Below are positions 3,294-54,685 of a stretch of DNA of 64,000 nucleotides, piece by piece (within the stretch, counting starts at the first letter, position 1; each line of letters opens with the position of its first letter). The notes beneath the pieces were generated by a model. The model was not told where the DNA came from. It worked only from the letters and a program-made list of their open reading frames with translations, and did no database searches. A program made the position numbers and the translations under genes. The stretch comes from Thermoleophilaceae bacterium. Its GTDB lineage: Bacteria > Actinomycetota > Thermoleophilia > Solirubrobacterales > Thermoleophilaceae. The stretch covers positions 186,001 through 250,000 of the forward strand of contig JBBDYQ010000002.1 in NCBI GenBank assembly GCA_040901445.1, given 5' to 3'.

Positions 3294-4403
3294 TCAGCCG
3301 GCCGCCGTGACCTCGACGATCTCGCGCATGACCTCGCGCAGGTCGTTGTTGGCCTCCCAGACCACCAGCTGGCGGGCGCCGCCGTTGCCGCGGGCGATGA
3401 TGTCGTCGAGGGCGTCGAAGGCCTCCTCGCCGCCCGCGTCCTGCGCGTGCTCCCTGAGCTCGTCGCCCAGCCGCTTGGCGAGCCCCTTGGCCGGCACGCG
3501 CTCGTTGCTGGGGAGATCGATGAGCTCGCCGGCGAGGCCGTGCCGGGCGGCGATCCACTTGTTCTCGTCGATGATCTCGAGCGGGATCTCGGGCAGCGGG
3601 CGCTCCGCCTCGAACTCCTCCGACAGCCGCATGGCGAGCGCCTGCACGACGCCCGCGAGCGCCACCGTGTGCTCGACCCTGGTCTGCGCGTCCATCACCC
3701 GGACCTCGACCGTGCCGAACTTCGGATGGGGCCGGGTGTCGTACCAGAGGTAGGTGTAGTCCTCGATCGTCCCGCTCTCGACCATGAACTCGATGCGGCG
3801 CTCGTACGCCGCCCAGTCGTCGTACACCGGCGGGATGCCCACGCGCGGGAACTGGCGGAAGATGGGCGTGCGGGTGGAGAGCAGCCCGGTGGCGTCCGCG
3901 CGCCAGAACGGCGAATTGCCCGACAGGGCCAGCAGCAGCGGGATCTGCAGCCGGAAACCGTTGCTGACGTAGATCGCCTTGTCCGGATCGTCGATGCCGA
4001 CGTGCACGTGGACGCCGAAGATCAGCTCCTGGCGGGCCACGAACTGGAGCGCGGCGATGAGGTCGCGGTAGCGCGGCCGCGCGACGATGCGCTGGTCCTC
4101 CCACATCGCGAAGGGATGGGTGCCGGCCGAGCCGATGGCCAGCCCGAGCTCGGACGCCGTGCGGGCGACGGTCGAGCGCAGGTTGCGGAGCTGCGCGCCC
4201 ACCTCGCCGATGGTCTTGCAGGGGGTGGTGGCGATCTCGCACACCGACTCCATCAGCTCGGGCTTGACCTCGCCCTCGGTCTCACCGACCCCCTCCAGCA
4301 GTGCCTCGATGGAGTTCGAGAGCTCGAGCGTCTCGGCATCGACGATCATCAACTCCTCCTCGATGCCGAGCGTGAAGGAGGGCCCCGTGAATCGGTGCTC
4401 CAC
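3294..4403 (-). CDS. YbdK-type carboxylate-amine ligase (glutamate-cysteine ligase GCS2 family)
   Basis: 369 residues of the GCS2/YbdK family, ATP-dependent ligases with weak glutamate-cysteine ligase activity in studied members. Visible hallmarks are FTLGIEEELMIVD (substrate and metal site near the N-terminus), GSAGTHPFA, QLIFGVHVHVGI-like FGVHVHVGIDDPDKAI, LLALSGNSPFWRA, and VEVRVMDAQT. I chose GTG 4403, giving VEHRFTGPSF, because family members begin just before the GIEEE motif. The frame could extend 11 codons upstream. Actinobacteria of this kind often use a related enzyme for other thiols, so the physiological product is uncertain. Confidence 0.88.
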   Translation of the reverse strand: MEHRFTGPSFTLGIEEELMIVDAETLELSNSIEALLEGVGETEGEVKPELMESVCEIATTPCKTIGEVGAQLRNLRSTVARTASELGLAIGSAGTHPFAMWEDQRIVARPRYRDLIAALQFVARQELIFGVHVHVGIDDPDKAIYVSNGFRLQIPLLLALSGNSPFWRADATGLLSTRTPIFRQFPRVGIPPVYDDWAAYERRIEFMVESGTIEDYTYLWYDTRPHPKFGTVEVRVMDAQTRVEHTVALAGVVQALAMRLSEEFEAERPLPEIPLEIIDENKWIAARHGLAGELIDLPSNERVPAKGLAKRLGDELREHAQDAGGEEAFDALDDIIARGNGGARQLVVWEANNDLREVMREIVEVTAAG

Positions 4404-4500
4404 GCGCGCATCGTAACCGCGTGCCCAGCGGCCCAAACCGAGCGGGGTCCGGGTAACCTCCGGGCGCTCCGCAAGCGACCAGGCAGGTGACCTCGACCAG

Positions 4501-15932: not shown

Positions 15933-17360
15933 ATGGCCAAGGATGACCGCTCCATCCCGACCGGGAGGGTCCGGCGCACCGCGAAGGTGGGCACGGTGAT
16001 CGGATCGCAGGGCGCGCGATACGCAGGGACGCGGGCCGCCAACCTCGCGCGCTCGGAGGAGGACCGGGTGACGGCGCTCGACGCGCGCCACCTCGAGGCG
16101 GTCGAGCGGATGGTGGATGTGCTCGGCACGATGAAGGGGGCGGCGATGAAGGTCGCGCAGCTCGCCTCGTTCATCGACACGGACTTCATCCCCGAGGAGT
16201 ACCGCGAGCTCTACCAGGAGAAGCTCGGCAAGCTGCGCTCCGAGGCGCCCGCGATGCCGTGGAAGAAGGTGCGGGCCGTGCTGGACGAGGAGTGGGACGA
16301 GCCCGTGGAGGAGCTGTTCGAGGACTTCGACCACGAGGCCTCGGCAGCCGCCTCGATCGGCCAGGTGCACAAGGCCGTGCTGCCCGACGGCCGGCGCGTG
16401 GCGGTGAAGATCCAGTACCCGGGCATCGCGGAGGCGCTGCGGGCGGACCTGCAGAACGCCGGCATGATCCTGCGGCTGGCCAAGGCGCTGGCGCCCGGGC
16501 TCGACGCCAAGGCGGCCGCGGAGGAGCTCAAGGAGCGGGTGCTCGAGGAGCTGGACTACGAGTACGAGGCCCAGAATCAGCGCGCGTTCGCGCGCGCCTA
16601 CCGCGGCCACCCCTTCATCTACGTGCCGGACGTGATCACGCGCCTGTCGCGCACGCGCGTGCTCGTGACCGAATGGGTGGACGGGCGCAAGTTCGACGAG
16701 ATCAAGGCGCTGCCGCAGGACGAGAAGGACCGCTTCGCCGAGATCATCTTCCGCTTCTGCTTCGGCTCGATCTACCACATCCAGCACTTCAACGCCGACG
16801 CCCACCCGGGCAACTACCTGCTGCTCGACGACGGCAAGGTGGCGTTCCTCGACTTCGGCATGACCAAGCAGCTCGACAAGGAGCAGATCGAGCTCGAGAT
16901 CGCCGCGCTCGAGGCGGTCTTCGCCGACGACCCCGAGCGCGTGCGCGTGGCGCTGCACGACCTGGGCTTTCTCTCCAATCCCAAGCGCGTGGACGCCGAG
17001 AAGCTCATGAAGCACGTGAAGGCCGTGGGCGGCTGGTACATGCGGGACGAGGACGTGACGGTGGACTCGCTGCTGGTGATGCGCGCCATCGCCGCGGTGT
17101 CCGATCCGCGCGCGGGCTTCTACGAGCTGTGGCGGCGCGAGAACGTGCCCGCGAACGAGCTCATGGGCCGGCGGATGGAGACCGGTGTGCTCGCCGTGCT
17201 CGGCCAGCTCGAGGCCACGCGCAACTGGTACCGCATCGGCCGCGAGTGGTGGTTCGCCGACGACCCCGCGACCGAGCTCGGCCGCGAGGAGTGGGACTAC
17301 TTCGAGTCGAAGGGCGAGAAGCGGGTCAGGAAGTTCTCGGCGCGGCTGGGCCCGGCGTAG
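15933..17360 (+). CDS. ABC1/AarF/UbiB-family atypical kinase
   Basis: 475 residues. The family motifs are in order: the KxGQ-like helix reads GTMKGAAMKVAQLASF (Ala replacing the usual Gly), then AAASIGQVHKAVLPDGRRVA, the lysine in VKIQYPG, LEELDYEYEAQNQ, the catalytic loop DAHPGNYLL and the metal site FLDFGM. Family members are ADP/ATP-binding proteins tied to quinone or isoprenoid-lipid metabolism. There is no ubiquinone or menaquinone gene beside it, so its pathway is not shown. Start ATG at 15933, divergent from rplY. Confidence 0.93.
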   Translation: MAKDDRSIPTGRVRRTAKVGTVIGSQGARYAGTRAANLARSEEDRVTALDARHLEAVERMVDVLGTMKGAAMKVAQLASFIDTDFIPEEYRELYQEKLGKLRSEAPAMPWKKVRAVLDEEWDEPVEELFEDFDHEASAAASIGQVHKAVLPDGRRVAVKIQYPGIAEALRADLQNAGMILRLAKALAPGLDAKAAAEELKERVLEELDYEYEAQNQRAFARAYRGHPFIYVPDVITRLSRTRVLVTEWVDGRKFDEIKALPQDEKDRFAEIIFRFCFGSIYHIQHFNADAHPGNYLLLDDGKVAFLDFGMTKQLDKEQIELEIAALEAVFADDPERVRVALHDLGFLSNPKRVDAEKLMKHVKAVGGWYMRDEDVTVDSLLVMRAIAAVSDPRAGFYELWRRENVPANELMGRRMETGVLAVLGQLEATRNWYRIGREWWFADDPATELGREEWDYFESKGEKRVRKFSARLGPA

Positions 17361-41932: not shown

Positions 41933-42597
41933 CCTCTCGGCATGTTCGTAAATCGCGCCGTGGAGCTCGCGACCCTTGAGCGCTGGTGGGACGCACTCTG
42001 AGCGGCACAGCAGGATGCGCAGCTTCGTCCGGCCGCGAGCGCGATCCCAGAAGGCGCGCAGGACTCCGGGAAGAGTGGGCATCGCCCCGGTGAGCTGCTG
42101 GAACTCGTCGAGTACCAGCAGCACCCGCTTGTGTGCGGCTGCGGCAGCAAGCGTGTCGAGCGCGTCGTCCCAGTCCGCGAAGGGCCGCCGCCCGAGGTCC
42201 CTCGTGCCGGATCGATCACGGCGGAGGCCGCGCGTGCGAGCAGACAAAGCTCGTACGCTGGGAAGCCACGTTCCGCGACCACGTGGGCCGCCTGGCCGAC
42301 GCGGGCGAGCTCGGCCCCGAGATCTTAGACGTCGGCCCCTGGTGGCGGGACGCACCGCCGGTGGAGATCGACGCCGTCGCGCTCGCCGGACGGCAGCGCA
42401 CCGCGGTACGCGCCGGCGAGGCGAAGTGGAGCAGGCGGATGGACGGGGCGCGGCTGCGCCGCGGGCTGGAGCACAAGGCAGAGGTGCTGCCGCGGCCGGC
42501 TCCGGACCTTCGCTACGCGGTCTGCGCGCGGGAGGAGGTCACGAACGCCGAGGGTGTGCTCGCGGTCACGGCGCGCGACGTGTTCTCGCCGGCGTGA
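41924..42597. pseudogene. Shattered DUF234-type archaeal-style ATPase gene with inverted middle
   Basis: Three pieces of one family can be read. On the plus strand, 41924-42001 begins [20 protein letters not shown] and ends at TGA. On the minus strand, about 42240 down to 42002, are the central parts: [18 protein letters not shown], the Walker [15 protein letters not shown] and [19 protein letters not shown]. On the plus strand again, about 42241-42597, is the C-terminal nuclease-like domain ([43 protein letters not shown]). The P-loop is missing. The order is plus-minus-plus, so the middle was inverted and partly deleted, making it non-functional. Confidence 0.75.
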
Positions 42598-42625
42598 AGC
42601 CTCCTTACGGCCCCTTCGCGGTTGG

Positions 42626-42660
42626 TTGCGAGCGAATTCCTGACCTGATAGCGTCAGGTC
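42626..42660 (+). promoter_or_regulatory. Candidate promoter P1 of the pseudo-repeat RNA and cas operon
   Basis: TTGCGA (-35, 42626-42631), a 17-bp spacer, and TAGCGT (-10, 42649-42654) give a start near 42661. The -10 lies in the centre of a perfect inverted repeat GACCTGA-TAGCG-TCAGGTC (42642-42660), a possible repressor site. The first pseudo-repeat begins about 19 bp downstream. Confidence 0.4.
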
Positions 42661-42679
42661 GAGCAGGCGAGTGCTGTTC

Positions 42680-42780
42680 GATACCGGCGTAGCCCAAAGC
42701 CGGCTCCATTGCAGGGATACAGCCGTAGCCCACGCGCGTCCGACCGAACCACCCGGGTCTCGGCCCGGCTCCGTTGCACC
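42680..42780 (+). ncRNA. Degenerate CRISPR-like mini-array (pseudo-repeat, pseudo-spacer, pseudo-repeat)
   Basis: Two 36-nt sequences at 42680-42715 and 42745-42780 align without gaps to the array repeat (22/36 identities each by eye). The second keeps 13 contiguous bases CCCGGCTCCGTTG. Each keeps the repeat hairpin by compensatory change: CCGGC/GCCGG in the first, CCGGG/CCCGG in the second, against CCGGGGC/GCCCCGG in the array. The hairpin is followed by CTCC and then the ATTG or GTTG of the handle. The 29-nt pseudo-spacer (42716-42744) matches 15 of 17 nt with 42680-42696, which is preceded by TTC. I infer a crRNA-like regulatory RNA; it could also be decayed remnants of an array. Confidence 0.55.
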
Positions 42781-42820
42781 GCCTGACTGTCAGCTCGGCA
42801 CCGGGCGGCGCGACTTACCT

Positions 42821-42849
42821 TTACGAATCACCCATCCGTCGCATAGGTT
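42821..42849 (+). promoter_or_regulatory. Possible second promoter P2 directly before cas3
   Basis: A weak TTACGA (42821-42826) and TAGGTT (42844-42849) with 17-bp spacing would start transcription about 20 bp before the cas3 ATG. Weak match only; a perfect palindrome CTGACTGTCAG lies upstream at 42783-42793. No open reading frame is visible between 42781 and 42877. Confidence 0.25.
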
Positions 42850-42877
42850 CGCCCCATCTTCGTCCGGCCCCTCAGTC

Positions 42878-45265
42878 ATGAGTGACGTTCCCCGGCTCCA
42901 CCTCCCCACCGACTTCGCTGAATTCTTCCGGCACGCGACGGGCAATCACCCGTATGAGTACCAGCGAAAGCTGGGGGGCCTAGACCGGCCGCCGAGCGTC
43001 CTGGAGATCCCAACGGGCGCCGGTAAGACCGAGGCGCTGCTCGCACCGTGGCTCCATGAGCGCATCGTTCGCGGTACCGGTCCACGCCGCCTCGTCTACG
43101 CCCTGCCGATGCGTACGCTGGTCGAGCAGACTCGCGACGTTGCGCGCGAAATGCGCAAGCGACTGGGAATCGGCTCGGAGCACGTTGCGATCCACACGCT
43201 GATGGGCGGCCAAGCGTCCCGAGACTGGCGCGACAACCCGGAGCTGCCGCAGGTCTTGGTCGGCACGATCGACATGCTCCTCTCGCGCGCGCTCGGGCGC
43301 GGGTACGCCGAGAGCCGGTACGACTGGCCGGTCTCGTTCGGCCTGCTCAACTCGGACTGCCGCTGGGTCTTCGACGAGGTGCAGCTCATGGGGCCGGCGC
43401 GCGGAACGTCGGCGCAGCTGGCCGGGCTCCGGGACTCGCTCGGCACCGCCCTGCCGTGCGAGACGATCTGGGCCTCGGCGACGATCGACCGCAAGGCACT
43501 CGAGACGTTCGACCACCCTCGACTCGGCCCGGTCCACGGGCTCGCCGACGAGGACCGCGCCGGGCAGCTCGGCGCGCGTCTCACAGCGCGCAAGATCCTG
43601 GAGCGGCTCGACCTGTCGGATGAGAGCCCGGCCAATCTCCCTCGGACGATCGCCCGCGCGCTCCTCGAACGGCACGCCTCCGGCTCACGATCGATCGTGG
43701 TGCTGAACACCGTCGGTACCGCGCAGGCGGTGTTCGATGCTCTACGCCGCCGCCTCGCGCGTGTCGATGAGCCGCCCGAGGTCGTGCTCCTCCATTCACG
43801 CTTTCGCCCGCCCGACCGAGCGGAGCGGATGGCGGAGGCGCTCGCCCCGCTCGAGGACGGGCCTGGAAGGATCGTTGTCGCCACCCAGGTGATCGAGGCC
43901 GGCGTCGACACCTCGGCGCGGCTGCTCGCGACGGAGACGGCGCCCTTCTCGTCGGTCGTCCAGCGTCTCGGCCGTTGCAACCGCGCAGCCGAGTACGACG
44001 ACGCCAGCGTGCTATGGCTCGACCGCGGCGAGCCTTCGGAGCGAACCGCAGCGCCCTACCGTTCCGAAGACCTCGAGACCGCCCGGGCGGAACTCGCCGA
44101 GCTGATCGGGTCGTCGCTGTCGCCGGAGACCGTCGCGGCCCGGTCTGTGCCCGAACGGAGAATCGAGACCGCGATCCTGCGGCGACGTGACCTGCTCGAC
44201 CTGTTCGACACCAGCCCTGATCTGTCGGGCATGGACGTGGACGTCTCCGGCTTCATCCGGGAGGACGACGAGCGGAGCGTGTCCGTCTTCTTCCGCGACC
44301 TCCGGGCGGATCACGCGAGCGGCGTGGCGCCGGAGGATCAACCCGCCCCCGGGCGGGACGAGCTCGTGGCCGTTCCGCTCGGAAAGTTTGGCCGTCGGCG
44401 CGTCTGGCGCCTCGATCACCTCGACGGCGTCTGGCGCCCCGGCTCGCCGGCGCCCGGGGAGGCGGTCCTACTCGACAGCGGCGAGGGAGGCTACTCGTCG
44501 GCGACCGGCTGGGACCCCCGCCTGGGTGACTTCGTCGATCCGGCCGGGCCACCACCGGATCCCGAGCGTGCTGAGGGGTACGACCACGACGGCAAGAGCG
44601 TCGCCCAGCGCTCGTGGGCGACCATCGCGGATCACCTCTCGGACGCCCGCACGACGGCGAGCGAGCTGCTCTCGGCGATCGGGCCCATCGACGGCGACCG
44701 GAGGACGGCGGAAACGGTCGTAACCGCAGCGGCGGTTCACGACCTCGGCAAGGCCCATCCGGCCTTCCAGGACATGCTGCTCGCGGGCGTGGCGGACGAG
44801 CCCGAGCGCGAGCTGCGCCGCGGCCAGCTCTGGGCGAAGAGCGACCACCGGGGCGGTCGCCACCGTCGGCGGCACTTCCGCCACGAGCTGGCCAGCGCGC
44901 TGGCGCTGCGTGCCGGAAACGGTGCCAGTGCGCCTTCGGACCTCGCCGTCTACCTCGTGGCGGCCCATCACGGCCGCGTGCGGCTCTCGATCCGCCCCGC
45001 CCCGGACGAGCGGGCACCGGACGACAGTCCCGACACCCCGCGCTTTGCCCTCGGCATTGCCGAGGGCGATGAGCTGCCAGCCGTCGAGACGCCGCTTGGC
45101 ACGTGGCCCCAGACCCAGCTCGCCCTCGGCTGCATGGAGCTCGGCGCTCCCGACGCGTGGGCCGAGATGGCGTGCGGGCTTCGCGACGATCCCGCGCTCG
45201 GGCCCTTCCGCCTGGCCTATCTCGAGGCGCTCGTGCGCATCGCGGACTGGAGGGCGAGTGACTGA
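42878..45265 (+). CDS. cas3: Cas3 helicase-nuclease, type I-G
   Basis: 795 residues. The SF2 helicase is N-terminal: Walker A VLEIPTGAGKTEALLA (about 42-57), DEVQ (166-169, WVFDEVQLMG), SAT (about 200, WASATID), and the C-terminal motif VVATQVIEAGVDTSARLLA, then LGRCNR. The HD nuclease is at the C-terminal end (AAVHDLGKAHPAFQ, His621-Asp622), the arrangement of subtype I-U/I-G in which HD follows the helicase. It unwinds and degrades target DNA after recognition by the complex. First gene of the cas operon; its 3' end overlaps csx17 by 8 bp. Confidence 0.95.
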   Translation: MSDVPRLHLPTDFAEFFRHATGNHPYEYQRKLGGLDRPPSVLEIPTGAGKTEALLAPWLHERIVRGTGPRRLVYALPMRTLVEQTRDVAREMRKRLGIGSEHVAIHTLMGGQASRDWRDNPELPQVLVGTIDMLLSRALGRGYAESRYDWPVSFGLLNSDCRWVFDEVQLMGPARGTSAQLAGLRDSLGTALPCETIWASATIDRKALETFDHPRLGPVHGLADEDRAGQLGARLTARKILERLDLSDESPANLPRTIARALLERHASGSRSIVVLNTVGTAQAVFDALRRRLARVDEPPEVVLLHSRFRPPDRAERMAEALAPLEDGPGRIVVATQVIEAGVDTSARLLATETAPFSSVVQRLGRCNRAAEYDDASVLWLDRGEPSERTAAPYRSEDLETARAELAELIGSSLSPETVAARSVPERRIETAILRRRDLLDLFDTSPDLSGMDVDVSGFIREDDERSVSVFFRDLRADHASGVAPEDQPAPGRDELVAVPLGKFGRRRVWRLDHLDGVWRPGSPAPGEAVLLDSGEGGYSSATGWDPRLGDFVDPAGPPPDPERAEGYDHDGKSVAQRSWATIADHLSDARTTASELLSAIGPIDGDRRTAETVVTAAAVHDLGKAHPAFQDMLLAGVADEPERELRRGQLWAKSDHRGGRHRRRHFRHELASALALRAGNGASAPSDLAVYLVAAHHGRVRLSIRPAPDERAPDDSPDTPRFALGIAEGDELPAVETPLGTWPQTQLALGCMELGAPDAWAEMACGLRDDPALGPFRLAYLEALVRIADWRASD

Positions 45266-47399
45266 GCTGCGACTACCAGGCTGCCGGTCGCGTCCCTTGC
45301 TCGGCTACCTCAAGGCGCTCGGTGTGCTGCGCGTGGTCGCCCGCCAGGCCGACACCGGGGCGCGCGGCCGCTTCTCCGGCGGGGTGCTCGAGCTCTCCTC
45401 CGAGCTGGATCGCGACGCGATCGGCACGTTCCTCCTCGAGGACTACATGCCCACGCCAGTCCTGTCTCCCTGGAACGGCCGCGGCGGCTTCTACGCGAAG
45501 ACAAACGCATCGATGGAGACCATCAACACCTCCGCCGAGCCGCGACTCCAGGGCTATCAGGAGGCATTCGCGCGAGCTGGCGACGTCGTGGAGCGGCTCG
45601 GACTAAGCGAGCAACCGAGGGCGAAGGAGAAGGGCCGCCTGCTCGCCGCCCTGCGCAACGAGTTGTCCGACGACGCGGTCGAGTGGGTCGACGCAGCAGT
45701 GGTCATCGTGGGGTCCGAGCTTCGCTTCCCGCCGCTCCTCGCCTCGGGCGGCGCCGACGGGAGCTATGACTTCTCGAAGAACTTCGCGGACGCCCTGGTG
45801 CCTGCGCTGGGGATCGGCCCCAGACCAGAGTCCGGCGAGACCCGAGCCACGTGGCTCGACGCGGCGCTCGACGCGACACCTGCTGAGCTGGTCCGCGGGC
45901 TGAGCGGCGCTCACTTCCACCGCGACGCCTCGCCCGTGAACTCCCCGCTCGGCGAGGCTGACGCGCTCGGCAACCCGTGGGACGTGGTCCTCGCGATCGA
46001 GGGATGTCTGCTGCTGGCGCCAGGCGCCGGACGCCGCCACGAGAGCTCGCTCCCCGGAAGCCTCGTCGCACCGTTCACCGTACGCGCGACGGCCGCGGGA
46101 TACGGCTCGGCACTGGCCGGCGAGAAGGGCCGAGCCGAGCTCTGGCTGCCGCTCTGGTCCGGCTGGGCAACGCTGCGCGAGCTCGAGACGGTGGTGCGCG
46201 AGGCGCGTGCCCAGGTGGGTCGCCGAAGTGCCCACACCGGTCTCGACTTCGTGCGCTCGGCGGGCGAGCTCGGCGTCGCCCGCGGCATCGAGAGCTTCGA
46301 GCGCTACGCCATCCTCGAGCGAGCGGGTCAGTCCGGTCTCGCCGTACCCGCCGGCCGCATCTCAGTGCGCCCGCGACCCGCCGCACGTGCGATCGCGAGC
46401 CTGGACGACTGGTTCTCGCGCGCGGTGTCGGTCCGTGGGCGGCTGCCACGGGCAGCGGCCGAGCCGGTGTCCGCCCTCGAACGGGCGCTCTTCGCCTTCG
46501 CCGATGCCTCGGCCGACGCCGAGACGCGAGCCAACGCGTGCGGCGTGCTGGAGCGGCTCGGGGCAGCCGAGGGCGCGCTGGCCGCGGCCGCGACGCGTGC
46601 CGGCAAGCTGGGCCTCGCACCGCTACGCGGGGCGCCCGCGGGACCCTGGCTGGCGGCGGCCGACGACGGAAGCCCCGAGTTCGCCGTGGCGTGCGGTCTC
46701 GCCTCTCTCCACGACACGACACCGTCAAGCCTGCCGGCCCTCCGCGACTACCTACACGGCACCGAGTGGGATCCCGATCGCCGCCGCAGGCGCTACGAGG
46801 CCGGCGTCAAGCGCCCGATCCCGAGACGTGGAGATGCGATCGTTCGACTCGCCGCGCTGCACGTGCGCCGGCATCTCGAGGCCGCTCATGCGCGCCAGCA
46901 CTCGAACGGCCACGAGGACCGTGTCGGGCTCAGCTTCGATGCCGGACTGAGCTGCCCGCTCGCGGCCGTGCGCGCCTTCGCCCGGGGACAGCTCGACGAC
47001 GAACGAGTGCTCCGGCTCGTTGAGGGGCTCGCTTTGCTCTCGTTCGGCGGAACGCGCTGGGAGCCCCGTTTCAGGCATGCCGAGGCCGCGGCGCCGGTCC
47101 CCGCTTACGAGCTGCTGGCGCTCGTCTGGGACGGACGGGCGGGCATGCCGGGAGCCAGGCCTGGATGGGCCGCGCGGCTCGCGACGGGCCACCCCAAGCC
47201 GGTCATCGACGATGCGCTGCTGCGGCTGCGCCTGCTCTCGATCGAGCCGCTCGCCGGCTCAGGTGACCTGCTCGCCGGATGCCCACCCGGTCCGCGGCTC
47301 GCCGCGGCACTGCTCGTGCGGCTGCCCGCCGGCGGGCACGACGCCCTGCTGCACCGCCTCACGCGTTCCAGTCCAGCTACCGAAGGAGCCACGCCATGA
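45258..47399 (+). CDS. csx17: Csx17 / Cas8u2 large subunit, type I-G
   Basis: 713 residues from GTG 45258. The opening TELRLPGCRSRPLLGYLKAL and the segments YMPTPVLSPWNGRGGFYAK and FPPLLASGGADGSYDFSKNF are characteristic of Csx17, the large subunit of the I-G surveillance complex. It likely does PAM recognition, as Cas8 does. It lies between cas3 and csb1 with overlaps on both sides (8 bp and 4 bp), exactly as in the Geobacter I-U operon. Start supported by the cas3 overlap. Confidence 0.9.
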   Translation: MTELRLPGCRSRPLLGYLKALGVLRVVARQADTGARGRFSGGVLELSSELDRDAIGTFLLEDYMPTPVLSPWNGRGGFYAKTNASMETINTSAEPRLQGYQEAFARAGDVVERLGLSEQPRAKEKGRLLAALRNELSDDAVEWVDAAVVIVGSELRFPPLLASGGADGSYDFSKNFADALVPALGIGPRPESGETRATWLDAALDATPAELVRGLSGAHFHRDASPVNSPLGEADALGNPWDVVLAIEGCLLLAPGAGRRHESSLPGSLVAPFTVRATAAGYGSALAGEKGRAELWLPLWSGWATLRELETVVREARAQVGRRSAHTGLDFVRSAGELGVARGIESFERYAILERAGQSGLAVPAGRISVRPRPAARAIASLDDWFSRAVSVRGRLPRAAAEPVSALERALFAFADASADAETRANACGVLERLGAAEGALAAAATRAGKLGLAPLRGAPAGPWLAAADDGSPEFAVACGLASLHDTTPSSLPALRDYLHGTEWDPDRRRRRYEAGVKRPIPRRGDAIVRLAALHVRRHLEAAHARQHSNGHEDRVGLSFDAGLSCPLAAVRAFARGQLDDERVLRLVEGLALLSFGGTRWEPRFRHAEAAAPVPAYELLALVWDGRAGMPGARPGWAARLATGHPKPVIDDALLRLRLLSIEPLAGSGDLLAGCPPGPRLAAALLVRLPAGGHDALLHRLTRSSPATEGATP

Positions 47400-48358
47400 T
47401 CGATGCGCTCGCGAGCGAGCCTCGTCTGATCGTCGACGTCCGCCTGAAGCCACTCGCCGGCTCGACGTTCCAGCCGACAGGCTTCCCGGACTTGGGAGCC
47501 GCCACGTTCCAGCGCCCGGGCGATCAGCCCGCGCTCCTCGTCGAGTCGGTGCAGTCGATGACGAACCGACTCGAGGACCTCGGCTGGGACGCACCGGCGG
47601 GCGAGCCGATCGAGACGCTGTCACGACTGCCTTACGTCGAGGTCGTCTCAGCAAACGGGGGCGATCTCCTCACTTCGTCACGTCTCGAGCCCCACCGCCT
47701 CGCCGCCGCCTACATACGTGACGCGACCATCGACGGCTCGAAGGGCACGGACTGGATCGGCGAGCGGCTCGGGCTGCGCAAGGGCCATCCGCTCGACTGG
47801 GCCGCCATCTACAGGGCGGTGTTCGAGCTCGACCCGCTGTGCCTCCTGCACGGGGTCTTTTTCTCGGACCAGGCGTGGCACGGCAACCCCAAGGTGAGGC
47901 GGGCCGTCACGGCGGTGATCGAGGCGCTGGACGTCAGCCCGGTCGTCTCGGGCGGCGTCAAGCGCGACGATGTCCAGATCAGCGTTGATAAGGAAACGGG
48001 AGGACGCGGCGCAGAGGAGGGCTACGGCTTCGTGCCGTTCGGCCGCACAGAGTTCAGCGCGCGCGAGATTCTGCTCACGGCCGTGGTGGATCTCGAGCAG
48101 ATCCGCGGGTACGGGCTCGCCGCGGAGGAGGGCGAGCTGCTCGAGTTGCTCGCGCTCTGGGAGCTCGGCACGCTCGTCTCCGGGCCGCTGCGGCTCCGAA
48201 CCGCATGCGACCTCGACGTCACCGAGATCGACGTCCGGCGCCCTAGGGACTTCGAGCTGCCGGATGCGGCGCAGCTCGCCGAACGCATTGCGGAGTCACC
48301 CGCGAAGTTCGACCACCAGGGTGCGCGCTCGGCCACGTGGCCGGCGCCGAAGGGATAA
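47396..48358 (+). CDS. csb1: Csb1 (Cas7-family backbone subunit), type I-G
   Basis: 320 residues from ATG 47396, behind an AAGGAG ribosome site. Csb1/GSU0053-type Cas7: VDVRLKPLAGSTFQPTGFPD, LVESVQSMTNRLE, then RLGLRKGHPLDWAAIYRAVF, DPLCLLHGVFFSDQAWHGNP, and VKRDDVQISVDKETGG. The FGRTEFSAREILLTAVVDLEQI segment is also family-typical. Cas7 subunits form the helical backbone along the crRNA spacer. The start codon overlaps the csx17 stop (ATGA), and csb2 follows after 2 bp. Confidence 0.93.
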   Translation: MIDALASEPRLIVDVRLKPLAGSTFQPTGFPDLGAATFQRPGDQPALLVESVQSMTNRLEDLGWDAPAGEPIETLSRLPYVEVVSANGGDLLTSSRLEPHRLAAAYIRDATIDGSKGTDWIGERLGLRKGHPLDWAAIYRAVFELDPLCLLHGVFFSDQAWHGNPKVRRAVTAVIEALDVSPVVSGGVKRDDVQISVDKETGGRGAEEGYGFVPFGRTEFSAREILLTAVVDLEQIRGYGLAAEEGELLELLALWELGTLVSGPLRLRTACDLDVTEIDVRRPRDFELPDAAQLAERIAESPAKFDHQGARSATWPAPKG

Positions 48359-48360
48359 CG

Positions 48361-49755
48361 GTGGTCGGGCTCGCCGTCCGCTTCGACCTGGGGCGCTATC
48401 ACGCCACTCCGTGGGGCGCACACGTCAACGACGGGCGCGTGGAGTGGCCGCCGAGCGCGTGGCGGATCCTGCGAGCGCTCTACGCGGTATCCCGGAGCCA
48501 TGTTGGTCTGGCATCCCGCCGCGCCGACGCCGATGCCGTGCTCGTCCGTCTCGCCGCCGCGCCGCCTCCAACGTACGAGATGCCGGCCTCGGCCGCAGCC
48601 CACACGCGTCACTACTTCCCCAGCCGGCTCCAGTCGCCATCCCGGCCCGGCAAGACGGATCGCGTGCTTGACGCGTTCCACGCCGTGGATCCCGAGGCCG
48701 AGCTGCGCGTCTGGTGGGAGGCCGACCTCCATGACGCCGAACGCGAGGCGCTCGCCGCGCTCACGCGAACGCTCGGCTACCTCGGGAGATCGGAGTCGGT
48801 CTGCAGCGCCCGATTGCTCGCGGAGGAGCCCCCCGGCGAGCCCGATGCGCTACCGCGTGCGCAGCTGGCGGCCGACGAGCCCGGCGAGGTAGTGGAATTG
48901 CTCTGCCTGGACGGCGGCGAGGGGACGATCGACGCCTTGACCTGCTCCGTCGGCGACCTTCGACGTCGGCGGCGACTGGTCCCGAGCGGAACCCGCCTCG
49001 TCGAATACGCGCTTCGCCACCACTGGCCGTCGCCGGCTGCTAGACCCGCACCGGAGCGGCCGACGCTTGCCCGCTACCGGCTTCATGGCGGCTCCCGCCC
49101 CGGCATCCGGGAGGCCGTCGCCATCGGAGAGGCGCTTCGGGCGGCCGTCCAAGGTCGCCACGGGCGGCGACATGATGGTGCCGCCTCGCCCGTCTTCAGC
49201 GGAAGGGCGGGGGAGCGCCCGCGGGCCGATCAGCATCGGCACGCGCACTACATCGCCACGCCCGGCGCCGACGGACGCCGGATCGATCACCTCGTGGTCT
49301 GGGCACCCGAGGGCTTCGGACCAGCGGAGGTGGACAGCCTCGCGTCCCTGACGGAGATCCGCACGCGCGGACTCCCGGAGCCCCTGCGGATCGCGCTCAC
49401 AGCCGTGGGCTCGACCGAGCTCGTACTGCCGGAGCTCATGGGCCCGAGCAGGCGCTGGACATCGCTGACCCCCTTTGGTCTCACGCGGCATCCGAAGCGT
49501 CGCGGCGGGCGAATCGTCGACGCACCCGAGGACCAGATCCGCCGGGAGCTCGCCCTGCGCGACCTCCCAGAGCCGGTCGAGATCGAGCTCGTGAGGGGCG
49601 GGTGGAGCGAGTTTCGGCGCTCGCGCATCTTCGACTCCCGCCTGGGTGCCCCACGGGTCGTCGGGGCGACGGTCCGCTTCGAGGAGGAATTGGGCGGGCC
49701 GATAGCTCTCGGTGCCCTCAGCCATTTCGGCCTCGGCCTGTTCCTTCCGGCATGA
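48361..49755 (+). CDS. csb2: Csb2 (Cas5-Cas6-like fusion), type I-G
   Basis: 464 residues from GTG 48361, preceded by AAGGGAT. The N-terminus VVGLAVRFDLGRYHATPWGA with VEWPPSAWRILRALYAV is the Cas5-type RAMP domain. The C-terminal half, with RHAHYIATPGADGRRIDHLV and the Gly-rich loop LGALSHFGLGLF near the end, is Cas6-like. In this subtype Csb2 both caps the complex and processes the repeat. It ends 4 bp inside the cas4-cas1 start. Confidence 0.9.
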   Translation: MVGLAVRFDLGRYHATPWGAHVNDGRVEWPPSAWRILRALYAVSRSHVGLASRRADADAVLVRLAAAPPPTYEMPASAAAHTRHYFPSRLQSPSRPGKTDRVLDAFHAVDPEAELRVWWEADLHDAEREALAALTRTLGYLGRSESVCSARLLAEEPPGEPDALPRAQLAADEPGEVVELLCLDGGEGTIDALTCSVGDLRRRRRLVPSGTRLVEYALRHHWPSPAARPAPERPTLARYRLHGGSRPGIREAVAIGEALRAAVQGRHGRRHDGAASPVFSGRAGERPRADQHRHAHYIATPGADGRRIDHLVVWAPEGFGPAEVDSLASLTEIRTRGLPEPLRIALTAVGSTELVLPELMGPSRRWTSLTPFGLTRHPKRRGGRIVDAPEDQIRRELALRDLPEPVEIELVRGGWSEFRRSRIFDSRLGAPRVVGATVRFEEELGGPIALGALSHFGLGLFLPA

Positions 49756-51404
49756 GCGGCGCGGGCAGCGCGGTTCCCGACCTCGTCCCCGCCCGCATGC
49801 TCAACGAGCACGTCTACTGTCCTCGCCTCGCCTACCTGGAATGGGTCAACCAGGGCTTCCAGGACAGCGCGGACACCGTCGAGGGACGCTTCGTCCACCG
49901 CAGGGTCGACCAGCCTCGTGGCCGCCCTGCTCATGTGGACGGCGAGGACGAGCGCCCGCCGAGCACGTCGGTCACCGTCGGCTCCGAGCGGCTCGGGCTG
50001 ATCGCCAAGATCGATCTCATCGAGTCCGACGGCAAGACCGTCGTCCCGGTCGAGTACAAGCGCGGGCGACCGCGCGACGGCGACCCTCCGCTGTGGGAGC
50101 CGGAGCTCGTCCAGCTCTGTGCGCAGGTGCTGCTGCTGCGCGACGAGGGCTACACGGTGGAGCGCGCCGAGGCGTACTTCAGCGAGACGCGCACACGGCA
50201 TCCGATCGCGATCAGCGATGACCTGGTGGCTCGCACCCGCGTGGCGATCGCCGAGTTGCGCACCACCGCCACCCAGGACGAGGCCCCGCCGCCGCTCGTC
50301 GACAGCCCGAAATGCCCTCGCTGCTCGCTCGTCAGCATCTGCCTGCCCGACGAGGTGAACACGCTGCGGGGCGCGCGCGAGCAGGCGCCCCGCCGTCTCG
50401 TGGCCTCCGACTCCGCCGCCACTCCCCTGTACGCATCGACGCCTGGATCTCGACTCTCGAAGCGGGGCGGTCGCGTCGTGCTGCTCGAGGATCGAGAGGA
50501 GAAGGCCTCACGGCGGCTGATCGACGTCTCGCATGTGTCCGTCTTCGGAAACGTGACCGTTGGGAGCGCGGTGTTACGTGCGTGCTTCGAGGCGGGGACT
50601 CCGGTCCTCTGGTTCACGGCCGGCGGATGGTTCAGCGGAGTCGCGACGGGGATGCCCTCCAAGAACATCCAGGTCCGCGTGCGACAGCACCGCGCATCAG
50701 CGGTCGGCTCGCCGGAGCTTGCCGGTGCCTTCGTCTCCGGGAAGATTCGCAACGCGCGGACGCTGGTCCGACGCCACAGCGACGGCAACGCAGCCCCGGC
50801 GCTCGCGCAGCTCGCTGCCCTCGCCCGCCAAGCCGGGTCGGAGCGCCGGCTCGAATCGCTGCTCGGCATCGAGGGAACGGCCGCCCGGATCTACTTCCAG
50901 CAGCTCGCGAAGCTGCTTTCGGGCCCGTTCGGCGGCTTCGACTTCGACGGCCGCAACCGGCGTCCGCCGCGCGACCGCGTGAACGCGATGCTCTCGTTCG
51001 TCTACGCACTGCTCTTGAAGGACGCCGTCGTGGCCGTCCTCGCCGCCGGACTCGAGCCGTACCTGGGTCTCTACCACCGGCCGGGATTCGGGCGCCCCGC
51101 ACTCGCGCTCGATCTGGCCGAGGAGTTCAGGCCCCTGGTCGGCGACTCCGTGGTCCTGACCGCGATCAACAACGGTGAGGTCGGACCCGACGACTTCGTC
51201 GAGCGCGCCGGCGCGGTGGCATTGACTCAGGGCGGCCGACGTAGTCTGATCAGAACCTACGAACGCCGGATGGCGACCGAGCTCGTGCACCCGCTGTTCA
51301 AGTATCGGGCCAGCTACCGGCGGAGCCTGGAGATCCAGGCTCGGTTGCTCGCGGCTGTGCTGGTAGGCGACATCCCTTCGTATCGGCCTTTGACAACTCG
51401 ATAG
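49752..51404 (+). CDS. cas4-cas1: Cas4-Cas1 fusion, type I-G adaptation protein
   Basis: 550 residues from ATG 49752. Cas4 domain (about 1-200): VYCPRLAYLEW with Cys23, VEGRFVHRR, LGLIAKIDLIESDGKTV, VPVEYKRGRP and CPRCSLVSIC (Cys188, 191, 197) give the RecB-type nuclease with an Fe-S cluster. Cas1 domain (about 215-550): VSVFGNVTVGSAVLRACFEA, IEGTAARIYFQQLAKLL with its Glu, and LYHRPGFGRPALALDLAEEF. Fusion with Cas1 is a hallmark of I-U/I-G systems and is reported to fix TTN-type PAM selection. It overlaps csb2 by 4 bp. Confidence 0.95.
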   Translation: MSGAGSAVPDLVPARMLNEHVYCPRLAYLEWVNQGFQDSADTVEGRFVHRRVDQPRGRPAHVDGEDERPPSTSVTVGSERLGLIAKIDLIESDGKTVVPVEYKRGRPRDGDPPLWEPELVQLCAQVLLLRDEGYTVERAEAYFSETRTRHPIAISDDLVARTRVAIAELRTTATQDEAPPPLVDSPKCPRCSLVSICLPDEVNTLRGAREQAPRRLVASDSAATPLYASTPGSRLSKRGGRVVLLEDREEKASRRLIDVSHVSVFGNVTVGSAVLRACFEAGTPVLWFTAGGWFSGVATGMPSKNIQVRVRQHRASAVGSPELAGAFVSGKIRNARTLVRRHSDGNAAPALAQLAALARQAGSERRLESLLGIEGTAARIYFQQLAKLLSGPFGGFDFDGRNRRPPRDRVNAMLSFVYALLLKDAVVAVLAAGLEPYLGLYHRPGFGRPALALDLAEEFRPLVGDSVVLTAINNGEVGPDDFVERAGAVALTQGGRRSLIRTYERRMATELVHPLFKYRASYRRSLEIQARLLAAVLVGDIPSYRPLTTR

Positions 51405-51409
51405 GACAG

Positions 51410-51706
51410 ATGGCGGACCGCACGCGCTACCTGCTCGCGCACGACATCCGCCACCCGCGGCGCCTACGGCGGGTCCACAAGGTGGCCACGGGGTACGGAG
51501 AGCCGCTGCAGTACTCGGTCTTCGTGTGCGATCTCAGCGGGATCGAGCTGCTCGATCTCAAGACAGCTCTTTTCGCGGAGATGAACACGCGCGAGGACAG
51601 CGTCGGCATCTTCGACCTCGGGCCACCTTCGGGACGCGGCCTCCAGTGCATCGAGTTCATCGGGACACGGAGGCCGCTCCCGAGCGGTGAGGCGGCCGTG
51701 TGGTGA
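51410..51706 (+). CDS. cas2: Cas2 endonuclease-fold adaptation protein
   Basis: 98 residues. YLLAHDIRHPRRLRRVHKVA, GYGEPLQYSVFVCDLSGIEL and TREDSVGIFDLGPPSG are Cas2 family segments: a ferredoxin-fold dimer that bridges Cas1 dimers in spacer integration. The first strand ends AHDIRHPRR, where many Cas2 have YDI.D. It lies 5 bp after cas4-cas1, last gene of the operon, and is followed by the array leader. Confidence 0.93.
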   Translation: MADRTRYLLAHDIRHPRRLRRVHKVATGYGEPLQYSVFVCDLSGIELLDLKTALFAEMNTREDSVGIFDLGPPSGRGLQCIEFIGTRRPLPSGEAAVW

Positions 51707-51884: not shown

Positions 51885-54657
51885 GTCACCGGGGCTATCC
51901 CGCCCCGGCTCCGTTGAAGCACGGCCTCGAGCCGCTCGGCCAGCACGACGGTCATGTCACCGGGGCTATCCCGCCCCGGCTCCGTTGAAGCCCGACCACC
52001 CGGATCGTTGAGCGGTGGTGGGACCGGGTCACCGGGGCTATCCCGCCCCGGCTCCGTTGAAGCCACCCTCCCGACGACCGTGACCGCCGCCCTGGACGCG
52101 GTCACCGGGGCTATCCCGCCCCGGCTCCGTTGAAGCATGACCGCCGCGAGCACCTCAACCTCCTCCTTGACGTCACCGGGGCTATCCCGCCCCGGCTCCG
52201 TTGAAGCGTTCCCGTCGCGGCGGTGGTATCGGGCGCAGCCGAGTCACCGGGGCTATCCCGCCCCGGCTCCGTTGAAGCTCGAGCTCGTCGGCAGCCTCGC
52301 GTACCCACGCGACGTCACCGGGGCTATCCCGCCCCGGCTCCGTTGAAGCTACGCGGCCTGGGGGCGGGCTTCGGACGGTCCTGCCGTCACCGGGGCTATC
52401 CCGCCCCGGCTCCGTTGAAGCACCCAGTCCTTCGCGGTGGCGCGCGACACGTCCAGCGGGTCACCGGGGCTATCCCGCCCCGGCTCCGTTGAAGCCGGTT
52501 CGCCGGCCCCCGCTACCGCGCGAAGCTGATGTCACCGGGGCTATCCCGCCCCGGCTCCGTTGAAGCTCGTCCTGCCACATCTCCGGCTTGAGCGTGCGAA
52601 TGTCACCGGGGCTATCCCGCCCCGGCTCCGTTGAAGCACGCCGAGCGTCTTCAGGTCGGCGGCGTGAGCGTGCAGTCACCGGGGCTATCCCGCCCCGGCT
52701 CCGTTGAAGCACCGCAGACGTGAACCGGCCGGGCAGCGACCGGACGAGTCACCGGGGCTATCCCGCCCCGGCTCCGTTGAAGCCGCCGGAGGCACACGGC
52801 GCTCCACCACCAACTCGCGAGTCACCGGGGCTATCCCGCCCCGGCTCCGTTGAAGCGCCAACGCAGCCTCGTACGGCTCCGGGATCCGCGGCGTCACCGG
52901 GGCTATCCCGCCCCGGCTCCGTTGAAGCCACTTCCGCCTCGGACGGCTCCTGTCGCGCAGGGATGCACGTCACCGGGGCTATCCCGCCCCGGCTCCGTTG
53001 AAGCGGCGCGGCTCGGTGCGGCTAGGCCGAGTGCCGCCGTCACCGGGGCTATCCCGCCCCGGCTCCGTTGAAGCGCGTTGTCCTCGTCGAGCTTGGCCGC
53101 GTCGGGGCTGTCACCGGGGCTATCCCGCCCCGGCTCCGTTGAAGCCCTATGTCTGTTTCTCGCCATAGGAATAGGTGCGTGGCGTCACCGGGGCTATCCC
53201 GCCCCGGCTCCGTTGAAGCTCCCGCTCCAACTCGCGCGCAGAATCATCAATCGAGGTCACCGGGGCTATCCCGCCCCGGCTCCGTTGAAGCCGCAAGTTC
53301 CGGATCATCGACGACGACGGCGCGATGTCACCGGGGCTATCCCGCCCCGGCTCCGTTGAAGCCGTGAGTGGAATAAAAGGAGCAGCCGTGACTGAAATCG
53401 TCACCGGGGCTATCCCGCCCCGGCTCCGTTGAAGCACGTCGAAGGTCGAGGCGAGCATCCGCACCGTGCTCGTCACCGGGGCTATCCCGCCCCGGCTCCG
53501 TTGAAGCAACATGCCCGCCTCGCTGCTCAACGCCCCGACCGGCGATGTCACCGGGGCTATCCCGCCCCGGCTCCGTTGAAGCGCGCGCGCCCCGGTCAGG
53601 TTGTGCTCGCCGAGAGCGGTCACCGGGGCTATCCCGCCCCGGCTCCGTTGAAGCATCGACATCGACGGCAAGTGCGCGGGCTGCGGCCACGTCACCGGGG
53701 CTATCCCGCCCCGGCTCCGTTGAAGCCGCCGCACGCCGTTGCTGTGGGCGAGCCCGGAGTGGTCACCGGGGCTATCCCGCCCCGGCTCCGTTGAAGCCCC
53801 GCGGCAGCCGCGGCGGCGGTCGTTCCGAGCGCGTCACCGGGGCTATCCCGCCCCGGCTCCGTTGAAGCTACACCTGCCCGCAGGGGCATACGTGCATTCC
53901 CGGTGTCACCGGGGCTATCCCGCCCCGGCTCCGTTGAAGCCAGGGTCTCTCCCGCGAGGTGCTCAACCTCGCCGGCGTCACCGGGGCTATCCCGCCCCGG
54001 CTCCGTTGAAGCCCTTGTCGAGCCCCCCAGGGGGAGCGGCCTCCGCCGCGTCACCGGGGCTATCCCGCCCCGGCTCCGTTGAAGCCTGTCTACCTGCAAC
54101 AGTTCGACCACGCACGGGAACGTCACCGGGGCTATCCGGCCCCGGCTCCGTTGAAGCCGAGAGCTGTTCGGGGACGCCGTGTCGAACGACGAGTCACCGG
54201 GGCTATCCGGCCCCGGCTCCGTTGAAGCTGGAATGGCCGGCCGGTGTCCTACGCGAAGATCTTCGGTCACCGGGGCTATCCGGCCCCGGCTCCGTTGAAG
54301 CTCCCCCACCCCGCTCACGAGGAAGCCACCTCCTCGAGTCACCGGGGCTATCCGGCCCCGGCTCCGTTGAAGCGCGATCAGCGGGTGCATCCCCGTCGGC
54401 GGCATCGGCGGTCACCGGGGCTATCCGGCCCCGGCTCCGTTGAAGCTCACCGAGGCCAAGAATGCCATTGGCGCGGTCAACGCCGTCACCGGGCTATCCG
54501 GCCCCGGCTCCGTTGAAGCGACGAGGACTCCGACTACGGCGGGATGCTCGGCGACGTCACCGGGGCTATCCGGCCCCGGCTCCGTTGAAGCGTGGTATCT
54601 GCTGCGCTCTCCGTACTCCGTGTGAGCGCCTAGTCACCGGGGCTATCCGGCTCTGAA
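51885..54657 (+). CRISPR. Type I-G CRISPR array: 38 full repeats, one truncated, 38 spacers
   Basis: Repeats of 36 bp begin GTCACCGGGGCTATCC and end CCCCGGCTCCGTTGAAGC, at a period of 71-75 bp (spacers about 34-39 nt, all different by eye). Starts include 51885, 51956, 52028, 52101, 52172, 53110, 53400, 54050 and 54556. Each repeat folds as CCGGGGC-TATCCC-GCCCCGG, followed by the GTTGAAGC handle. The first 31 repeats are identical by eye. From 54122 on, all carry C to G in the loop (CCGGCC), and the one at 54485 also lacks one G. The last (54633-54657) is truncated with an internal deletion, marking the old end. Confidence 0.98.
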
Positions 54658-54685
54658 AGAAGACGGCGGAAGCCAGGTCCCGCCG

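Follow-up and report, generated by a model that had tools for sequence, protein, structure and literature searches.

Why does a type I-G CRISPR (clustered regularly interspaced short palindromic repeats) system carry two degenerate copies of its own array repeat immediately in front of cas3? The question arises in a 64,000-nucleotide (nt) stretch of a Thermoleophilaceae bacterium genome (contig JBBDYQ010000002.1, positions 186,001–250,000), which we call the window and whose coordinates are used below unless another locus is named. Two pseudo-repeats, psiR1 (42680–42715, + strand) and psiR2 (42745–42780, + strand), flank a single pseudo-spacer, psiS (42716–42744, + strand; GATACAGCCGTAGCCCACGCGCGTCCGAC), and this mini-array lies upstream of cas3g (42878–45265, + strand), the first gene of the I-G operon and of the operon presumed to be regulated. 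From the sequences of this locus and its relatives, we consider it probable that the mini-array is a CreR-type gene, with one spacer and two repeats, making a CRISPR RNA (crRNA)-like guide through which the system's own I-G effector would repress the cas genes.

A degenerate mini-array in front of cas3

The first-pass annotation of this DNA had placed the two pseudo-repeats correctly, each with 22/36 ungapped identity to the 36-nt repeat of the genuine array (GTCACCGGGGCTATCCCGCCCCGGCTCCGTTGAAGC), and had noted 13 contiguous bases common to psiR2 and that repeat (CCCGGCTCCGTTG), which recomparison bore out. Identity of 22/36 is by itself at chance level, because eight non-array sites in the window, the two strands together, reach it. 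The arrangement is another matter: of 200 windows simulated with a Markov model, one contained a same-strand pair of such sites 60–80 nt apart, and none did when the 3′ 16-nt module also had to be kept (at least 12/16). The 15-nt core CCCGGCTCCRTTGMA has 39 copies in the 3.5-Mb genome, its sole copy outside the array being the one at 42764. The pair, with its spacing and retained 3′ module, is not a chance-level occurrence, and the mini-array is real. It adjoins the cas operon of its own system, as a degenerate mini-CRISPR of the CreR kind does. Neither an Rfam scan of 42300–43000 nor a comparison of the mini-array region with a phage collection gave a match.

In type I-G, Csb2 cuts 4 nt past the repeat stem and so leaves an 8-nt handle (PMC9638904). 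The CTCCnTTG segment that had been singled out as the source of this handle does preserve the geometry exactly: stem, 4 nt (CTCC), 8-nt handle, in agreement with the Csb2 cutting site. In psiR1 the stem CCGGC/GCCGG is followed by CTCC and then by the predicted 5′ handle of the guide RNA, ATTGCAGG (42708–42715, + strand), placed by the same rule; in psiR2 the stem (42753–42758/42763–42768) is followed by CTCC at 42769–42772, with the predicted cut after 42772. The mature crRNA-like RNA predicted from this geometry is 65 nt long (42708–42772, + strand). The further claim that both pseudo-repeats keep a hairpin in the place of the repeat stem through compensatory changes holds for psiR1 and only in part for psiR2, where the 3′ arm is in place and the 5′ arm is displaced by 4 nt.

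The same hairpins admit another explanation, in which the element is a cis-acting leader of cas3: the hairpins would be a site for Csb2 binding and cutting within the cas mRNA, giving guide-free feedback by mRNA cleavage. Csb2 does bind and cut such hairpins (PMC9638904), and the element lies within the presumed cas3 leader; such a leader, which could operate alongside a guide, leaves unexplained the seed/target match, the flanking motif and the position-6 mismatches described below, and we regard it as the least likely of the explanations weighed here.

The predicted guide and its target

The strongest evidence for a guide is a match between pseudo-spacer and target that the earlier reader overlooked. 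The predicted guide begins at 42716 (GATACAGCCGTAGCCCA). Within 700 nt on both strands, and with no protospacer-adjacent motif (PAM) required, the top match to psiS is GATACCGGCGTAGCCCA at 42680–42696 (+ strand), identical at 15/17 positions and situated right after TTC (42677–42679, + strand); the PAM of type I-G is TTN (PMC9638904). The pseudo-spacer is thus partly complementary to a site upstream of cas3 that has a correct PAM in front of it; pairing starts at position 1, is broken at positions 6 and 8, and stops past position 17. We compared the score of this match with those of 3000 dinucleotide shuffles of the sequence upstream, 202 spacers from genuine arrays and 2000 further stretches of the window, and no member of the three sets reached it. 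In I-G complexes pairing skips the sixth base of every six-base segment, which is flipped out (PMC9638904).

The target falls within the 5′ half of psiR1, that is, inside the first pseudo-repeat of the guide gene itself, and from its place upstream of cas3 we infer that it controls the cas operon. The best promoter candidate, TTGCGA–17 nt–TAGCGT (42626–42654, + strand), is weak, was picked by eye and is a guess; the target is downstream of it and would therefore sit early in the transcript. Across the candidate −10 element there is also a palindrome, CCTGAC-N8-GTCAGG (42639–42658), a possible operator for a protein regulator.

Repression could then proceed as follows. Transcription starting at a promoter ahead of 42680 would run through the mini-array toward cas3, and Csb2 would cut 4 nt past each pseudo-repeat stem to free an RNA of ∼65 nt beginning with the handle. 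The I-G effector loaded with this guide would bind the observed PAM and match, TTC-GATACCGGCGTAGCCCA, at 42677–42696, and, by analogy with CreA and CreR, the bound complex would block transcription of both the mini-array and the cas3 operon. Pairing is limited to the first 17 nt, and Cas3 should therefore spare the DNA. Competition from array crRNAs for the effector, or inactivation of the effector by an anti-CRISPR, would relieve repression.

The element in other type I-G loci

A cas3g search of 232 genomes in the window's order (relatives labelled Solirubrobacterales or Solirubrobacteraceae, phylum Actinomycetota) found six that carry the gene. Besides the window, the element stands before cas3 in G306 (locus L022), G429 (L051) and G107 (L025); it is absent from G208 and was not found in G053, where absence is uncertain as the contig starts 237 nt before cas3. 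Outside the order, G693 (L044) also has it before cas3. Counting a divergent element in G837 (L066), treated below, 6 of the 25 I-G loci examined carry the element, five of them in CreR-type form, so that in this sample it recurs, but in a minority of the loci. The scan may miss distant targets: that of G837, 366 nt off, escaped it initially. In one locus that has no mini-array (L020, G223:C14, ∼4062–4464), an open reading frame (ORF) that looks HEPN-like by eye runs straight into cas3g.

The predicted guides differ from locus to locus, and so do their targets, given here after the flanking triplet: GTGCTCGTGTGGATAGC and TTT|GTGCTAGTCTGCATAGC in G306, GTGCTCGCATGAGTTGC and TTG|GTGATAGTATGCGTTGC in G429, AGCGCCGAAAG and TTT|AGCGCGGAAAG (minus strand) in G107, and GCTCGAAGCGTTGCTTG and TTG|GCTAGAAGCATTGCTAG (minus strand) in G693. 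The handle of G693 tracks its own, different repeat (GTTGCGGC vs ATTGCGGC). In 6/6 loci (the window, G306, G429, G107, G693 and G837) the best nearby match lies right after TTN. Over positions 1–11 mismatches occupy 11 of the 66 cells, and five of these 11 fall at position 6 (P = 3e-4), which is mismatched in 5/6 loci. Sites found with a score that ignores positions 6 and 12 would bias this count, and for that reason it was made on sites picked with all positions weighted equally and no PAM required; the same sites ranked top, the exception being G429, where the site tied with a non-TTN one.

G306 and G429 belong to one genus. Three parts are conserved in their alignment, namely a promoter-like block, the handle with the seed, and the hairpin of psiR2; at positions 13 and 15 guide and target co-vary. 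The first-pass annotation had named conservation of the pseudo-repeats and hairpins in close relatives as a check; the psiR2 hairpin is kept between these two genomes and the anatomy in G306, G429 and G107, psiR1 is almost gone in G107, and G208 is without the element. By eye, the targets of G306 and G429 start on an extended −10-like motif (TGCTAGTCT and TGATAGTAT), and that of G107 is flanked by TTGCTG and TAAAGT, with 17 nt between these two motifs. In G107 (L025, G107:C49, 3679–3791) psiR1 has shrunk to the handle, which stands at about the transcription start expected from TTGCTG-17-TAAAGT, so the 5′ end of that guide may be fixed by the start of the transcript and not by cutting.

These loci bear on the idea that the window element is a non-functional remnant, either of a decayed array or of a 36-nt tandem duplication, with an incidental match between guide and target. 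Its repeats are indeed degenerate, and in the window the target precedes the guide by exactly 36 nt, the spacing expected from a tandem duplication; elsewhere, however, the target is 73 or 83 nt away or on the opposite strand. With offsets and strands varying in this way, we rejected a 36-nt duplication as the origin of the match. Decay predicts neither a TTN-flanked match from position 1 in six loci nor the co-variation between G306 and G429, and these features, like the position-6 mismatches, need selection; we therefore hold a remnant to be highly unlikely.

Several observations weigh against an autorepressor guide. The mismatch at position 8 of the window guide is a real weakness, because in haloarchaeal CreA a change at any of ten seed bases abolished activity (PMC8501985). 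A consensus scan of the window element for promoters and terminators returned none at threshold. Hairpin stability was dropped as evidence at this locus, since ∼33% of shuffled sequences fold as well as the pseudo-repeats. In 19 of the 25 I-G loci (Actinomycetota and one archaeal) the element was undetected, with nothing above background outside arrays.

A possible toxin-linked relative

In G837 (L066; G837:C47:90000–109000) the mini-array is upstream of cas3 and on the strand opposite to it (∼16730–17095 in locus coordinates). Its guide, CAGTGCGTCCGTATGAG at 16726, matches TTC|CAGTGTGTCCGAAGGAG at 17091, 366 nt away, with mismatches at positions 6, 12 and 14, and this site ranks first in the whole 19-kb locus. 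The target is ∼130 nt before a 43-amino-acid ORF (16829–16960, minus strand) with one hydrophobic stretch (MPSGEYADRYNHLVGVVLYVITLVIVIRLLQPQPEWLLGVGGR), which matched no family in Pfam; a perfect 10-bp hairpin separates the mini-array from the ORF. The element is closer to the CreA type than to the CreR type, and G837 is a possible CreTA- or CrePA-like toxin–antitoxin pair tied to type I-G, to be taken as a lead and not as a result.

Might the window guide likewise be an antitoxin, the CreA of a CreTA or CrePA pair, repressing an RNA or peptide toxin instead of the cas genes? The anatomy of CreA is identical (PMC8501985), and the related G837 element aims at a small membrane-peptide ORF. The window target, however, lies within psiR1, with only the mini-array and cas3 downstream, and target and guide are too close together to leave room for a distinct toxin unit; no toxin-like unit stands at the target, where CreA has its toxin adjacent, and in G306, G429, G107 and G693 nothing but the element separates the target from cas3. 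The first-pass annotation had seen no small toxin ORF between the element and cas3, and nothing toxin-like came to light there in the window. An antitoxin is thus quite unlikely. The earlier preference for cas autoregulation, as against an antitoxin or array decay, gains support from the TTN-flanked match from position 1 in the six loci and from the G306/G429 co-variation, as far as sequence comparison goes.

We put forward only tentatively, as a view somewhat less probable than its negation, that the I-G systems of actinobacteria use one module, a degenerate mini-array of two repeats that the I-G effector reads, for two jobs, namely cas autorepression (the window, G306, G429, G107 and G693) and control of a small membrane-peptide toxin (G837). 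The window guide would bind inside its own psiR1, and the guide gene would thereby silence itself along with the cas operon.

Comparison with known mini-arrays

CreR RNAs, described as cas-regulating (Liu et al. 2023, Cell Host Microbe, as related in the reviews PMC12737573 and PMC13131331), are reported from types I-B, I-E and V-A (PMC13131331). As far as those accounts go, the window element resembles CreR in being a gene for a predicted crRNA-like RNA by a cas operon, with a partial match upstream of the cas genes (at the cas promoter in CreR), a correct PAM and no toxin. It differs in belonging to a type I-G system, with Csb2, a TTN PAM and an effector that stably includes Cas3, and in having its target inside the guide gene's own first pseudo-repeat.

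With the CreA of CreTA, proven in type I-B with two degenerate repeats and a seed match at positions 1–5 and 7–11 (PMC8501985), it shares two divergent degenerate repeats flanking one pseudo-spacer, a seed of 1–5 plus 7–11 with positions 6 and 12 free, and a PAM by the target (PMC8501985, PMC9458426); CreA, however, represses a toxin, and none is seen in the window. The Racr phage RNA anti-CRISPRs are likewise repeat mimics outside arrays, but in the account drawn on here they are solitary repeats in viral genomes (PMC10651486), whereas the window element is chromosomal and matches a target by its own cas operon.

The host locus

The window holds a complete type I-G set: Cas3g (TIGR02621, 689 bits), Csx17/Cas8g, Csb1/Cas7g, Csb2, a Cas4–Cas1 fusion, Cas2 and 36-nt repeats. 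After cas3g, the remaining operon genes, csx17 to cas2, occupy 45270–51706, all on the + strand: csx17/cas8g ends at 47399, csb1 spans 47279–48358 and csb2 48337–49755, the cas4–cas1 fusion ends at 51404, and cas2 spans 51410–51706. The genuine array of ∼39 repeats follows downstream of cas2 (51885–54668, + strand). From 54122 to the array end the repeats have the loop CCGG in place of CCCG, and the last one (54633) breaks off after 19 nt, which marks 54122–54668 as the trailer end. Directly upstream of the mini-array, an ORF at 42133–42597 matches the DUF234 family; around it, on both strands, are apparent fragments of a larger, perhaps disrupted gene of ATPase type.

Significance

A 2023 survey by Shmakov et al. 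reportedly found, across many type I systems, mini-arrays of standalone repeats with spacers that match cas promoters in part. The first-pass annotation knew of no CreR-type guide in type I-G, and we found none described in the literature that we searched, a search outside which the key 2023 work on CreR and mini-arrays falls. The predicted mini-array guide is probably of the CreR kind, in what is apparently a new subtype for it, I-G, and we claim no priority. Nor did the literature searched yield a description of a type I-G system controlling its own genes. With a built-in guide, cas expression would depend both on crRNA abundance and on attack by anti-CRISPRs. Even when no target DNA is present, Cas3 is a stable component of the I-G effector (PMC9638904), so autorepression would imply that this effector can occupy host DNA and leave it uncut when pairing ends at 11 to 17 nt.
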